This document shows, piece after piece, positions 2,035-51,132 of a DNA stretch of 64,000 bases. Source of the DNA: Entamoeba histolytica HM-1:IMSS (Eukaryota; Evosea; Mastigamoebida; Endamoebidae); NCBI RefSeq assembly GCF_000208925.1, contig NW_001914917.1, positions 1 through 64,000 of the forward strand. The letters run 5' to 3'. Positions within the stretch are counted from its first letter, which is position 1, and each line of letters starts with the position of its first letter. The notes under the pieces are model-generated. The model made no database searches. It had not been told where the DNA came from and was given only the letters and a program-made list of their open reading frames with translations. A program made the translations under genes and the position numbers.

Positions 2035-2759
2035 ATTAATTGAAAATGAAACTAAAAAAGAATAAAAACAAATCAATGAAGAATATGAACAGCCATTTCG
2101 TTCATCTGCCAAAGAATCAAATGATAAATTAAAAATTGACATAATTCAATGTTGATTTATTTTATTTCATTTAATGAAATATTCACACCCAATGAGGGTG
2201 TTTTTAATAAATAAGAAAAGAAATAAGAGAGAAATAGAAATAAAACGAATAAATAAACAAATTATTTGTATTATTTCATTGAATTAATTCATTATGAATC
2301 AAATGAATAAGATAATAGAAATAATAAGAAAGAACAAATAAAGAAATGATAAAATACATCAAAATATTTATGTTATTATTTCTTATTTCTTTATTATTTT
2401 ATTTTCTATTTAAACAATAATAAACAAAACATAATAAGAAAGATAAATAAGAATAAACAACATAAAATAAAGAATACAAATAAAATATACAACAAACATG
2501 AATAAACAAGAAATGATAAATGATAAAAGAAGAACTAAATAAAATAACAACAAGAATAAAGAAAATAGAAATAAATGGAAATAAATAGAATAAATTCAGT
2601 GATGTTTAGAAAAGAGGAAAAGACAAAAAGAAGAAATGAATGATGATTATAAAAGATAAAAATAAAATAATAAATATAAAATCAAAACTAAAATAACATA
2701 ATAATATAATAACAATATCATTGATTTTATCTTATTTTATTTATCTTATTTTAAAAGAG
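2035..2759. other. Intergenic DNA before LINE copy 1
   Basis: Mostly A/T-rich with purine-rich runs on the plus strand and no supported gene. Two small perfect hairpins at 2164-2201 are the only structured feature (listed separately). The left edge of the retrotransposon near 2760 is set by a change to less simple sequence, not by a defined terminus. Confidence 0.5.
2164..2205. other. Paired hairpins with T run after TLDc gene
   Basis: Two adjacent perfect inverted repeats. The first is ATTTCATT-T-AATGAAAT (2164-2180). The second is ACACCC-AATGA-GGGTGT (2185-2201), followed by a run of five T (2201-2205). The second is unusually GC-rich for this DNA. They lie 130 bases downstream of the TLDc stop and could mark a transcript end or a small RNA. 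The role is inference. Confidence 0.35.
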
Positions 2760-3171
2760 ATCCTTTTCCAATGCAGGAAATACAACAAATTTTAATGCCA
2801 TGGCTATTGTGTAAAACCTTAGAGTCTTGTAAAGAAAAGCAAACAAGACATAGAAATCAAATGTCATACAATAAAAAAATGAATGTCAATAGCAATAAAT
2901 GGCATAACAATTATAATAATAAAGGTAAATGATACACCAAGGAAATTTGATTAGAAGACGAAAGACACAAAGAAAAACAAATAAAAAACAAGGTAAATAC
3001 AATAATAATAAAGATTATACAAATAACAAATACAAATGAATAACAATAAATGAGATACAAGAAAGAATAAAAAGAATAACAAGTGAATGAAATGAAGGAG
3101 AATACGAAGAAATACTAAAAAAATATGAAGGTAAGAGGAAAAGATGATATGATATTCTTCAAGAAGTATAT

Positions 3172-4290
3172 TCAATTAAAAAGAAAAAAATAATTGAAAA
3201 GACGAAAGAAGAGTTTAAAGAAAAAACAAAAGATTGGGAGGAAAAAGACATTAAGGCTATAGAAGCAGAAATTAAAAACAAAAACCAAATTAAAGAAATG
3301 AATGATAGATGTAAAATTGCAAGAATAATAAATGAAACAGAAAGTATAAAGAAAGTACAAGAAGAAATAGAAAATAAAGAAGAAAAGATAGAAGAAGAAA
3401 AAGAAAAAGAAGAAATAATTGCTCTGAAAAATCAAATTACTGAATTACAAGGAAAACTTAAAGAATTAAGTATGAAAAGAATGGAAGAAGAACAAGCTAT
3501 CTCAGAAGAAATGATGAGAAAAGCAAAAGAAATAATTAGGAAAGAATTTGAAGAAGAAACTACAGAAATGAAAACACAAATTAAAAAGATTCAAACGAAT
3601 TATGAAGAAATGAAGAAAGAAAATGAAAAATTAGAAGAAGAAAACTTAAAACTACAAGGAAAAATAAACGAGATAGAAGGAAAGAAAATCACAGAAGTAA
3701 ATAATAAAGAAGAAAAAATCCGAAGTATCCAAGCTAATAAAAAGAAGATGGAAAAAGAAAAAGAAGAAATGAAAGAAGAAATTGAAAAGTTGAAAAAGAG
3801 AAACAAAACGCTAGAACAAAATGCAAACACATTAGAGAAGAAAATTGAAATGATAGAGGAAAATACTAAAGAATTAAAGAAAGAAATAAGAGATAAAGAA
3901 AAACAAATCTCTGAATATCAAGAAATTGCAATTAAAAACCAATAAATTGCAATTAAAAACCAATAAATTGCAGAAATAACAAGAGAAGAATTAGACAACA
4001 CACAAAAAGAAAATGAAACACAAAAACAAATAATATCAAAACAACAAGATGATATTGAAAATTTTATCTCACAGAAGGAACTAGAGAAGAAGAAAACGAT
4101 GACACTTGTGATAAATACACAACCAGTACTGAGGAAAACATCATCAGGAACAATGGAGATGAACGAAACTACTCCTATGAAAAAGACAGTAGTGGAAATC
4201 GAAGAGGAAAGCAAAGCACTGATTGTCAAAAAACAAGAGATGATAATCAGACAAGAAATACAACAGAAGGAGAAATCAAATTTTAATTGA
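3172..4290 (+). pseudogene. LINE ORF1-like coiled-coil region
   Basis: The frame is open from about 3172 to 3945 and continues after two TAA codons to 4290. It encodes some 370 residues of Glu/Lys-rich heptad-like coiled coil (EEIENKEEKIEEE, then KKENEKLEEENLKLQ). Known EhLINE ORF1 proteins are nucleic-acid binding and coiled-coil, and this lies directly upstream of ORF2, so ORF1 is the likely identity. No RNA-binding motif is recognised. The two stops arise inside a 21-nt tandem duplication at 3923-3972. It could alternatively be the remnant of a separate coiled-coil gene. Confidence 0.55.
3923..3972 (+). repeat. 21-nt tandem duplication creating stop codons
   Basis: Two full copies of a 21-nt unit (3923-3943 and 3944-3964) and the first 8 nt of a third. 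Each unit encodes IAIKNQ followed by TAA, so the copy events brought the stops in frame and the downstream coiled-coil reading frame is kept. This is direct from the sequence. Confidence 0.9.
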
Positions 4291-4291
4291 A

Positions 4292-6309
4292 GTGATGTAT
4301 TGTTTTGTAATTAATTGGTTAAATAAGAAATTATATAAGAAATTAAGATGGGAACAAATTGAAAGTATAATAAAAATGATAAATATCAATGTAAATAATG
4401 AAAAAGAATATATTAAATATATTAAAATATCACATAAAATAAAAGAAAGCACTAAACGGTACATTAAAGTGAAAGTAAATGATATAATAGAAGGAAGAGT
4501 AGAGTGTAATTCAATAATAAAAAATCATAATAAAAAATAACTCTACAGAAATTGATGAAGAATACCTTAACACTCTCATCAATAAAATAAAAGAAATGAA
4601 AGTAGAAAAATGTTCAAACATTAATTACTACTGGAAAAGAAAAGAAGCTGACCGATTAATAATGGAAATTAATAATAGATGGATATGGTCAGGAAGCAGA
4701 ATGCAGGAACTGCAAGATGATATGAAGATTATTTCAATGGTTATGCACCTCTATCTCCAAAATAAAATAATAGGAGATAAATTTGATGAAATAAAAGAAA
4801 TCCTAAAGAAAATTAATAGACTAGAAGATATAGTCAATGAAAATGTAGAGAATCAAGTGCATCATGAAATTAAAAGAACATGATGAAGAATGAATCAAAG
4901 TCAAAGCACTAGAAAGAATAAAATAACTAAAATATATGATGACAATGATAAAAGAAAGAATTAAATTTAATAAAAATGAAATAGTCAGAATCAATACAAA
5001 TAAAATCATGTTTGATTCTAACAAGAAAATTAAAATAATGAAGAAACAAATAATGAAATATACCAAATAACGATATTACTTTAGAATAAATGAAATATTA
5101 TATGAAACACAGGTGATATTAAATAAAGAGAAATGGAAAATAAAACAAATCACCTTGTGGAATGAAAGATATAGAAATTATGATAGTGTCATAATAACAT
5201 TAAATGAATTAAATTTAAGTATAATGAAAATAAATAATTGGAAAGCACCAGGAATAGACATTATATATGGGTATTATTGGAAAAGAATGTCATCATCAAG
5301 AGAAGCCATTCTCAGTATCTTCAATGAATGGTTGAACTTCCCTGAAAACATCCCATTAGACCTGGTAAGTGGAAGAACTTTATTAATCCACAAAGTGATA
5401 GGAATGATGTCATTAATTATCGTCCTATCAGTTGTACAAATGTAATTATGAAAGTATTTACATCAATATTAAAAGAAAAGATTCACAGAAGACTTAACAT
5501 GAATAATGAATCATTTAAAATTAGTAATAAACAATTGAGATGTAAGTTACAATCTTTAGCTGCTAAAGAATGAATAATTAATAGTTATATGATGAAGCAG
5601 CAAAAAGAAGAAAAATACCCAAAATATGATGAGTCATATTATGACATTAAGAAAACATATGACACAGTAAACCACGAATGGGTAATTGAAACATTAAAAT
5701 ATTTTAATTATGAGTGTGTCATCATTGACATAATTGAAAGTATAATGACTAGATGGAAGATATTCATCGGTTATAAATTTAATGAATATCTAGGTAGTAT
5801 TAAATTAAATAGAGGAATTTTACAAGGCGATTCCTTATCAAATCTACTCTTCATCATTCAGATGAATGTAATTTCTCAATTCATCGAAGAGAAATTCCCA
5901 AAAACAAATCACACTTTATATATGGATGATTTGAGAATAATGACGCAAAGTAGTGAAGAAATGGGAATAATCCACAATGAAATTAAAGAAATAATAAGTT
6001 ACATATTGATGGAAATGAATGAGAAAAAATCATGAATGGTATTAAAAAAACATTAAGAAAATACCAGATGGAATGCAAAACATCCCCGTAGTTGAAGGTG
6101 AGGACTTGTATAAATACTTAGGAATATGGCAGTCCGACGAAATTGATGACACCTTCAATTGTAAATCCATCAAAGAAAAAATGAATCAGAAGATGGAAGA
6201 AATAAACACTGATGAAAGTAGTAATAGAATATATATTACTAGAATAAACACTGAAGTAATCAATATCTTCAGATATTCAGCATCAGTTGTAAATTTGAAA
6301 GTAACTTAG
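4292..6309 (+). pseudogene. LINE ORF2: reverse transcriptase part (copy 1)
   Basis: A broken ORF2 spread over several frames. The N-terminal part (4292-4883) resembles the start of copy 2 (VNNEKEYIKYIK against VNDINEYKEILK). The RT motifs follow in order: NWKAPGID near 5240; RTLLIH near 5370, then a frameshift before NYRPISCTN; YDTVNHEW near 5660; LNRGILQGDSLS near 5805; LYMDDLRI near 5920; and a YKYLGIW block near 6105. The catalytic MDD is still present. In-frame TGA codons at 5571-5573 and 6033-6035 sit where Gly is expected. It is not functional as it stands. Confidence 0.85.
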
Positions 6310-47189: not shown

Positions 47190-47800
47190 ACAGATAGAAG
47201 GTGGCACATCTGAAACATCACAAACACTAATACAATTCATGTTTTTGAATCTCTCAATTATTATCTTGTTATGATAGTGTATTTGAATTAGAAATATATT
47301 AATTAATATTGCAAATGGTGCATCATTTTATTATGATGAAATATTAGACGTTGAAATATAATAAATAAGATTCAATATTTATTAAAAAAGAAATTAAGAA
47401 AAATACATTAACCAATGAAAAGAATCTAATAGAGTGTAGTTAATACTGAAAGAAAATTAGTCATAATAATACAGTAGTAATGGAATGTTCTTTTCTCTCA
47501 TTCATAAAATAAAGAAAAAAGAAGGAAATGAGACTATTTAAAATTAAATCAAAAATAAACAAATGTTAAAAAGCAGGAATAAATAGAAAAGTTTGAGAAG
47601 ACATTAATAAGAAGAAATAAAACAAAGAAATGGTTTTCTCATTTTCCTAGAAAAACATAAAGGATAAGTTAAACAAAAAGATTATTCTTTTTAAAAACAA
47701 GTGAAGAGATAGGAATATTCTCCTCTGAGCAAGGAATAATAAATGAACATTCTATTAACACTTAATTAACTATTTTTATTTAAATGGTTTAGTTAATAAC
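47190..47800 (+). mobile_element. SINE-like element A
   Basis: About 610 bp without coding capacity. Its last ~80 bases (about 47700-47785) match the 3' end of LINE copy 1 (about 7465-7540): CTCCTCTGAGC against CTCCCCTGAGC, and CTATTAACACTTAATTAA against CTATTAATACTTAATTAA. A SINE sharing its 3' end with a LINE is the known EhSINE/EhLINE arrangement, and the length fits EhSINEs (about 0.55-0.65 kb). The 5' boundary is estimated from its alignment with element B. Confidence 0.6.
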
Positions 47801-47894: not shown

Positions 47895-48425
47895 AAAATT
47901 GGAGTTTGAAGTTGACATGTTAGAAACACGCACTCAAATAATAATAAAAATCAATCATTGAACCATCAATTATTATCTGATTATGATGATGGATTTAGAT
48001 ATAAAATAAATTAGTTAATATTACTAAGAATGAAGTAAAATATTACAAGTGAATAATATCAAATGAAAACGATATAAATGATGATGTTAATAATAAAAAA
48101 TTAGATATGATAATATAATGATAATTAAATGTTCATTTATCATAAAATAGAAAATAGAGAAAGATGAGGTTCATTAAAATTAAAATAAAAATCAAAGAAG
48201 AAGATAAAAGGAAGAAATAAACAGAAATAAGAAAGAAAAAACACTAAAAGAAATAAAACAAATGAACTATTCACATAACAAGAAGAAAATCTAAATAATA
48301 AATAAAACAAAGAAGTTACTCATTTTAATAACAAACATTTGATTAATAGTAATTAATCAACGAATAAATTACAACTTTATTAACACTTAATTATCTATTT
48401 TATTTTTTATTCATCTATTATTTCT
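47895..48425 (+). mobile_element. SINE-like element B
   Basis: A diverged second copy next to element A in the same orientation. TCAATTATTATCT and a following TTATGAT...GGATTT block occur in both (about 47250 and 47970). Both end TATTAACACTTAATTA followed by a T-rich tail (48391-48420). The middle is eroded. The pairing with A is visible by eye; the boundaries are approximate. Confidence 0.5.
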
Positions 48426-49696: not shown

Positions 49697-49715
49697 ATAA
49701 GTCTACATTATATAA
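49697..49715. repeat. Left 19-bp direct repeat (probable target-site duplication)
   Basis: ATAAGTCTACATTATATAA at 49697-49715 is identical to 50381-50399. It flanks the 665-bp element on the left and runs directly into its A17 homopolymer. Confidence 0.85.
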
Positions 49716-49773
49716 AAAAAAAAAAAAAAAGTAATCAATTATGATTAACCTTATTTTTTAGGTTTTTCATCAT

Positions 49774-49982
49774 GTTGAGAAGTGAGTGAATCAGTTTCTT
49801 CAACACGCTTTATTTCTATTGAAATAAAGTTTTTGCAAGCATGCTCGACTTAAATGGTTCCTCAATTAAGTTGCTGCCTGACTTTTATTTTGATTTTAAT
49901 GAGTAATATAATATTTCTCATTCTTTATATTGTTGTTTTAAGGAGAGTATATCCATAACATACTGTTATAGCTCATCTCCTT
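49774..49982. other. Cluster of hairpins inside the 665-bp element
   Basis: Three inverted repeats are clear. CTTTATTTC-TATT-GAAATAAAG spans 49808-49829. AAGGAGA/TCTCCTT (49940-49946 with 49976-49982) encloses ATAACA-TAC-TGTTAT (49955-49969). An imperfect GTTGAGAA/TTCTTCAAC pair lies at about 49774-49804. They suggest that the transcript of this element is structured. Confidence 0.55.
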
Positions 49983-50140
49983 TTACCTTCGACACCCCTT
50001 AAAGAAACCCTATTCCTTGATAATATCATTATGTTTAATTTTTGTGCAACAATATCAATTATATATGCGTCTTCTTTAATAATTGATAATTCTTAATACA
50101 TAATACCTCCTTAGTAAATAATAATCCTTATAATTAATAA

Positions 50141-50212
50141 TGAATAACAATACACCGCAATGAATAACAATACACGTTAATGAACAACAATACACGTTAA
50201 TGAATAATAATC
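50141..50212. repeat. About 20-bp tandem repeats inside the element
   Basis: Three and a half units of AATGAATAACAATACACGTT with small changes (CGC for GTT in the first, AACAAC in the third). Internal short tandem repeats are a known property of EhSINEs. Confidence 0.8.
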
Positions 50213-50286
50213 TTTTATAATAATCACTTCTAATAAATATTAATAATAATTAACAGTTAGTGTTGAATAGGTATTATCTCACCAAA

Positions 50287-50380
50287 GGCACGTCATGACC
50301 AGACGATAACTGGGAGATTCGAAGCATGGGATTATTTTAGGGTTTCATGTGGTGTCTCTGACGTGCCATCTTCGAATCTC
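50287..50380 (-). ncRNA. Double-pseudoknot RNA element, HDV-ribozyme-like topology
   Basis: On the minus strand the pairing segments run as follows. P1 5' is GAGATTCGAAG (50380-50370), then AT, then P2 5' GGCACGTCA (50367-50359), then a 34-nt stretch that can form a CATG/CATG stem. P1 3' is CTTCGAATCTC (50324-50314). A hairpin CCAG-TTATCGT-CTGG follows (50313-50299), then UCA, then P2 3' TGACGTGCC (50295-50287). P1 (11 bp) and P2 (9 bp) are perfect and interleaved, so this is a pseudoknot. The order P1-P2-P3-P1'-P4-P2' is that of HDV-family ribozymes. The 5' G of P1 is the first base after the target-site duplication, where such a ribozyme would cleave, as known for R2-type retrotransposons. 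P1 is longer than the usual 7 bp and the active-site C is only tentatively the one in UCA. Catalysis is not shown. Confidence 0.5.
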
Positions 50381-50399
50381 ATAAGTCTACATTATATAA
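50381..50399. repeat. Right 19-bp direct repeat (probable target-site duplication)
   Basis: Perfect copy of 49697-49715, directly next to the first base of the pseudoknot end of the element. Confidence 0.85.
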
Positions 50400-51045: not shown

Positions 51046-51132
51046 GGTCCTGTAGCACAGTTGGTAGTGCATCGTACTTATAGGAAAGAGAAATGTGAGG
51101 GTTGCATGTTCAATCAATCCCCGCTGTGACCA
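51046..51132 (+). tRNA. tRNA-Ile(UAU)-like gene with 10-nt intron, possibly a pseudogene
   Basis: GGTCCTG begins the acceptor (51046-51052) and pairs imperfectly with TGTGACC (51125-51131): four Watson-Crick pairs, two G-T pairs, one mismatch. The D arm GCAC-AGTTGGTA-GTGC is perfect. The anticodon stem TCGTA/TGTGA encloses CTTATA, a 10-nt intron GGAAAGAGAA and the last loop base; the anticodon is TAT at the canonical site before the intron. The T loop TTCAATC is present but the T stem does not close well (GCATG against AATCC/CCCGC), as if AATC had been duplicated. A TTTT follows at 51134-51137. It is a single copy, not a tandem array as is usual in Entamoeba histolytica. It is either a relic or a diverged functional gene. 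Confidence 0.6.

Follow-up and report, generated by a model that had tools for sequence, protein, structure and literature searches.

Other SINEs, which derive from tRNA, 7SL or 5S RNAs, carry structured heads, and R2 elements bear at their 5' end a protein-binding RNA on which the second half of integration depends. HDV-like ribozymes begin with a P1 helix of about 7 bp that starts at the cleavage site, and the HDV ribozymes hold a catalytic cytosine in the joiner between P4 and P2' (J4/2). Passages of PMC4035085 describe ribozymes of this kind at the 5' termini of both R2 and L1Tc/NARTc/SIDER elements. For the Entamoeba histolytica element EhSINE1, passages of PMC2996970 propose A- and B-box-like RNA polymerase III (Pol III) motifs, report no known parent small RNA, leave the promoter open, and state that the element shares only ~70 bp with its LINE, at the 3' end. 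Passages of PMC3716655 print the 20-bp internal repeat motif of EhSINE2 as AATGAATAACAATACAC(G/C)(T)(T/C) and list a reference whose title concerns an abundant polyadenylated EhSINE-like transcript. The EhLINE endonucleases are described in passages of PMC3118788 as restriction-enzyme-like, with CCHC and PDX10-14D motifs.

The EhSINE2 copy and its 5' end

The window, the whole stretch of 64,000 nucleotides of E. histolytica DNA that was analysed, carries on its minus strand a retroelement copy whose first 94 nucleotides had been described in an initial annotation as a double pseudoknot with the strand order of an HDV ribozyme, possibly forming the self-cleaving 5' terminus of a SINE or LINE. 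The element and its surroundings comprise the following features.

49697..49715, no strand: copy of the target-site duplication (TSD) beside the 3' T run of the element, found by sequence match
49716..50380, minus strand: full-length EhSINE2-type element with a T-run 3' end (an A run on the plus strand from 49716 onward)
50139..50198, plus strand: the 20-bp internal repeat of EhSINE2, three times in tandem (AATGAATAACAATACAC.., with AATGAACAACAATACAC.. in one copy), by comparison with the motif of PMC3716655
50381..50399, no strand: copy of the TSD beside the 5' end of the element, an exact 19-bp match to 49697-49715

The three copies of the published repeat motif in its body identify the element as an EhSINE2-type copy, and it resembles EhSINE2 as presented in passages of PMC3716655 and PMC2657916 in this 20-bp repeat, in its pyrimidine-rich TSD and in its length of ~650 bp. 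A paralogous locus of the same genome (C384, L130) is empty: a single copy of the target, with one mismatch, stands there and no element is inserted. With the repeat, the 19-bp TSD and the empty paralogous site, the sequence establishes a copy of the known EhSINE2 type, and the proposal that the 5' end of a SINE adjoins its TSD here is borne out.

Where exactly the family begins was read from other copies. An exact TSD of 13 bp or longer flanks 34 of 42 distinct SINE2-type copies; 20 of these 34 start at A2, six one base later, five one base earlier, two two bases earlier and one four bases later. In four of the six that start one base later the TSD ends in A, which makes their start ambiguous. 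The usual family start is thus A2 (50379), with 50380 an extra G in the window copy, and since most copies start at A2 and not at G, P1 is usually 10 bp long. The claim that the G of P1 stands directly after the 19-bp TSD therefore holds for the window copy, in which 50380 lies outside the TSD, but not for most other copies. For SINE1-type copies, an exact TSD of this length was found in nine of 22, and their starts spread over five offsets.

Interleaved helices in the window and across copies

Positions within the head are numbered on the minus strand as p = 50381 minus the window position. The head contains the following features.

50283..50380, minus strand: 98-nt head module common to EhSINE1 and EhSINE2 (81/100 positions identical, then 0/20)
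50370..50380, minus strand (p 1-11): 5' strand of P1, GAGATTCGAAG, from complementarity and shuffles
50359..50367, minus strand (p 14-22): 5' strand of P2, GGCACGTCA, overlapping an A-box-like TGGC, from complementarity and shuffles
50314..50324, minus strand (p 57-67): 3' strand of P1 (P1'), CTTCGAATCTC, which is also the EhSINE1 B-box-like sequence, from complementarity and shuffles
50299..50313, minus strand: P4 hairpin CCAG-TTATCGT-CTGG, p 68-71 with p 79-82 (50313-50310 / 50302-50299), from complementarity
50296..50298, minus strand: joiner between P4 and P2' (J4/2), UCA here and UUA in SINE1, at the site of the HDV catalytic C
50287..50295, minus strand (p 86-94): 3' strand of P2 (P2'), TGACGTGCC, from complementarity and shuffles, with C18-G90 replaced by U18-A90 in group b

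The two perfect interleaved helices of 11 and 9 bp reported between 50380 and 50287 are confirmed by the sequence and by shuffling: none of 20,000 dinucleotide-preserving shuffles produced such an interleave with perfect helices of 10 bp and 9 bp, and looser interleaves of 7+7 and 6+6 bp arose in 104 and 1713 of the same shuffles. The CCAG/CTGG hairpin likewise sits between P1' and P2' as had been claimed. The proposed order P1-P2-P3-P1'-P4-P2' survives as P1-P2-P1'-P4-P2', P3 having no conserved helix. The energies of folds containing only P1 (-22.2) or only P2 (-22.1) are equal, so the two helices may alternate rather than coexist, and a switch is possible. An extension of P1 taken from the minimum free energy fold (P1b, AUGG/CCAU) gave no signal in the covariation test and was dropped, as was the idea that the loop AAACCCTAAA serves as a telomerase template, the stretch becoming AAACACTAATAC and similar sequences in older heads.

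A pattern search of the genome with the head returned 118 places, and the reversed pattern none. From BLAST-type searches of this genome, 40 of 83 and 40 of 75 candidates were scored, and three groups were examined closely: SINE2 (the window type), SINE1 and a group b. Over the first 100 positions the window SINE2 and the SINE1 copy L044 have 81 identities, and over the following 20 none, a drop indicating that the head is a module ending just past P2'; farther 3', a forced global alignment gives 6-15 identities per block of 20, and 2/20 in the last, partial block. Two SINE1 sequences, TCGAAGGTGGC and CTTCGACTCTCC, match motifs published in passages of PMC2996970. EhSINE1 as presented there thus has the 98-nt head in common with the window SINE2, the published A- and B-box-like motifs corresponding to the 5' strands of P1 and P2 and to P1', but differs in its body and 3' end, in one bulge each in P1 and P2, in its UUA joiner and in its undepleted T runs. 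Group b consists of seven loci with one common upstream flank, which are therefore not independent insertions; downstream of four group b heads (L040, L063, L072 and L073), a second, older head lies ~600 bases away on the same strand, forming a composite repeat.

The window itself holds further head-like sequences. Two decayed SINE heads, less than 0.7 kb apart, lie on the plus strand at 47190-47291 and 47901-48003 (head-model E values of 2.5e-12 and 2.8e-8). A very divergent head-like sequence at 50976-50874 on the minus strand, ~500 bp from the SINE2, has A-U in place of U5-A63. With only two copies found, it was considered as a parental small-RNA gene. The second copy (C384, L119) belongs, however, to a segmental duplication of this tRNA-like neighbourhood, which makes an old SINE head the more likely identity. 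The tRNA-like sequence of that neighbourhood (~51047-51131, plus strand, duplicated in L119) has an apparent intron and, by eye, a TAT anticodon; ARAGORN in bacterial mode made no call there, and Rfam gave no match at gathering score.

When two SINE1 copies were evaluated at the positions fixed by SINE2, with bulge-tolerant duplex energies, none of 1000 shuffles matched P1 in either copy, and 0 and 1 of 1000 matched P2. The SINE1 P1 has 9-11 bp, and P1 and P2 each contain one bulge; when uninterrupted helices were required, SINE1 did not exceed chance (28/150 shuffles as good). Differences between SINE2 and SINE1 fall at one of 38 paired and 16 of 55 unpaired positions (Fisher p = 0.0009), counting only the inner P1 as paired, treating the outer P1 bases 63-67 as unpaired and omitting bases 1-5. 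Between SINE2 and group b, three of the 38 paired and 11 of the 55 unpaired positions differ (p = 0.14); two of these paired differences form a compensating double change (C18-G90 to U18-A90), and the remaining one gives a G.U pair. In the outer P1 of group b, C65 is changed to A and its pair is broken, and in a subgroup with CATCGACACTCC the pair A10-U58 is broken.

In an alignment of 91 heads, 85 of them distinct, paired cells make up 82.0%, compared with 79.1% after shuffling and 21-48% after sliding, and both sides of a pair have changed in 83 cells compared with 44 after shuffling, both comparisons ignoring relatedness. A tree-aware covariation test found no single pair significant (smallest p 0.0035, E ~18); only the 21 pairs taken together reach a high rank in the same test (p = 0.0025, with pairs that are not independent of one another). 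Across 27 clusters, the nine P2 positions pair 0 to 9 times and the six inner P1 positions 0 to 6 times, a spread expected for decaying copies and weak as evidence. In four decayed copies, 1, 12, 42 and 378 of 1000 shuffles reached the joint P1/P2 score; the joint excess is thus none or weak in two copies (378, 42), with some in the other two (12, 1). Other genomic copies thus support a conserved structure, SINE1 through helices above chance and spared paired positions, though no single pair covaries significantly. These two properties of SINE1 make a conserved RNA fold of the head common to SINE1 and SINE2 likely, even though single pairs fail the tree-aware test.

Comparison with HDV-like ribozymes

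The head resembles the HDV-like ribozymes of R2 and L1Tc/SIDER elements, as described in passages of PMC4035085, in the order of P1, P2 and P4 and in its location at a retroelement 5' end. The interleaved P1 and P2 and a P4 hairpin between P1' and P2' are present, giving P1-P2-P1'-P4-P2' with a hairpin at the place of the HDV P4, and P1 starts at, or within one base of, the element 5' end. In the ribozyme reading, an HDV-like or new ribozyme would free SINE RNA from read-through transcripts by a cut just 5' of P1. Other traits depart from this model. P1 is not ~7 bp but 10-11 bp in SINE2 and, bulged, 9-11 bp in SINE1; inspection revealed no apparent partner for P1.1, a single base (C67) lying between P1' and P4, so that the initial reservations about P1 length and P1.1 were justified. 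The possible P3 pairings of SINE2 (CATG/CATG or GAG/CUU) are, on inspection, not kept in SINE1.

The base at the HDV-C position of J4/2 also varies. It is C in 35 of 38 SINE2-type heads, which suits a ribozyme, and U in the other three. SINE1 has U, and among the 91 aligned heads of all ages, UUA (68) outnumbers UCA (17), UGA (4) and CUA (2), so that U stands at the position in 70 heads, C in 17 and G in 4; a larger, SINE2-dominated set contains UCA in 42 and UUA in 39 of 83 heads. Because the would-be cutting base differs between the two families, the head is probably not self-cutting. The model search that had been suggested turned up no HDV-type family: Rfam returned three matches for the 901 bases of the SINE2 search and two for the SINE1 head at E up to 10, none of them HDV-type, and no match at gathering score.

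Self-cleavage of the HDV type, as first proposed, is thus not supported: the head has a long P1, no P1.1, a P3 that is not kept, a variable J4/2 C and 5' ends scattered over several bases, and a cut would be unnecessary given Pol III initiation. We regard an HDV-like or new self-cleaving ribozyme as very improbable. The slender chance still left to catalysis reflects the observation, in passages of PMC4035085, that some working retroelement ribozymes deviate from the strict HDV motif. A new self-cleaving class, with HDV strand order and a long P1 but with its active site elsewhere than at the HDV cytosine, releasing SINE1 and SINE2 RNAs from longer transcripts, appears fractionally more remote still.

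Pol III-like signals and possible functions of the head

The body of the window SINE2 carries a signature of a different kind. In 649 nt, of which 33% are T, 5.1-5.2 inner runs of four or more T would be expected and none occurs (mononucleotide P = 0.0025; 0/1000 dinucleotide shuffles), and A runs are not depleted (11 vs ~8). Of 30 SINE2 copies scanned, 29 have no inner T4 run and a T run only at the element end. T4 runs are also missing from 15 of 899 composition-matched stretches of the 64-kb window, which makes the signal moderate. A terminal T run with none inside, the pattern of a Pol III transcript, is found in SINE2 and not in the SINE1 copy L044, which shows no depletion and has T runs of 4, 6 and 5 at 415, 461 and 545, speaking against uniform use of Pol III. 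The polyadenylated EhSINE-like transcript of the reference title in PMC3716655 also weighs against Pol III. A likeness to the B box GGTTCGANNCC is seen in P1' (CTTCGAATCTC / CTTCGACTCTC) and one to the A box in TGGC, both boxes as given in passages of PMC2996970; against the published consensus, the B box of SINE2 matches at 9/11 positions by eye and the A-box match is weak. The inner absence and terminal presence of T runs in EhSINE2 point to RNA polymerase III, and Pol III initiation would fit the scattered 5' ends near A2 better than a ribozyme cut.

These signals invite an explanation at the DNA level, in which the conserved stretches are Pol III A and B boxes and RNA pairing is a by-product of the palindromic B box (TTCGAA) under little selection. 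The likeness of P1' and TGGC to the boxes proposed in passages of PMC2996970, the T-run pattern of SINE2 and the lack of any individually significant covarying pair are all in keeping with it. However, only three of the 31 positions at p 68-98 differ between SINE2 and SINE1, all of them unpaired, although P4 and P2' are situated downstream of the boxes; the complementarity of P2, which neither box needs, is kept in SINE1; and group b carries the double change to U18-A90. We consider the DNA-level explanation rather unlikely.

The LINEs of the genome bear on a further possibility, in which the 5' knot is a candidate docking site for a LINE-encoded protein during the second half of integration, analogous to the 5' protein-binding RNA of R2. 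Docking would accord with the restriction-enzyme-like endonuclease that EhLINEs, in passages of PMC3118788, have in common with R2, and with the retention of the head by two SINE families whose bodies otherwise differ. LINE 5' regions were obtained from reverse transcriptase (RT) matches, of which 150 of 309 candidates were scored. The head model matched none of three LINE 5' regions, none of them identified as LINE2, and interleaved strands at LINE 5' ends, sought in five LINE copies, did not exceed chance (13, 28, 19, 46 and 67 of 150 shuffles as good). As far as these tests reach, the knot is a feature of the SINEs, and this, together with the ~70 bp at the 3' end to which sharing between SINE1 and its LINE is confined in passages of PMC2996970, makes docking distinctly doubtful.

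The window also includes a LINE at ~2756-5480 on the plus strand, 92-93% identical to three other LINE regions, with its RT match at 5412-6050. The LINE 5' ends L132, L133, L011 and that of the window LINE begin with AGATCC and L131 with AGATTA, the first four bases being those of the SINE2 and SINE1 heads.

The reading that we prefer, and hold to have slightly better than an even prospect, is that the window head is the 5' head of an EhSINE2, predicted to form a double pseudoknot and to act as the likely non-cleaving, structured head of a Pol III transcript. The sequence itself supplies the element boundaries, the interleaved complementarity, the presence of the head in both SINE1 and SINE2 and the changes that spare paired bases. 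Under the preferred reading, Pol III would start at or beside A2 through the B-box-like P1' and the weak A-box-like TGGC and would stop at the terminal T run, so that a conserved pseudoknot would contain promoter-like boxes. Two short links, A12-U13 and 83-85, would hold the 10-bp P1 and the 9-bp P2 side by side, and P1 would close the very 5' end of the RNA. The least certain steps concern what the head then does: it may protect the RNA as a passive or protein-binding cap, and it may recruit a host or LINE-encoded protein for retrotransposition, as the heads of other SINEs do.

The tRNA-, 7SL- and 5S-derived SINE heads offer a close parallel, in that a conserved 5' module of small size, bearing Pol III-like boxes, is joined to unrelated bodies and LINE-related tails, as here. 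Unlike them, the Entamoeba head matches no Rfam family, and passages of PMC2996970 give no known parent RNA for EhSINE1.

EhSINE2 is already known; its conserved knotted head appears, as far as was searched, to be undescribed. A literature search, made mostly without subscription papers, found no paper joining Entamoeba to HDV-like ribozymes. The pseudoknot is not described in the passages considered of PMC2996970, PMC2657916, PMC3716655 and PMC3118788, and those of PMC3716655 and PMC2657916 mention neither a knotted head nor T-run depletion of EhSINE2. The T-run depletion is new in this analysis.

If the fold is real, the conserved knotted 98-nt head would constitute a defined functional 5' module for both SINE1 and SINE2, and a SINE head without a match among described RNA families. 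The T-run signature, present in EhSINE2 and absent in EhSINE1, makes the question of Pol III transcription in these elements a testable one.
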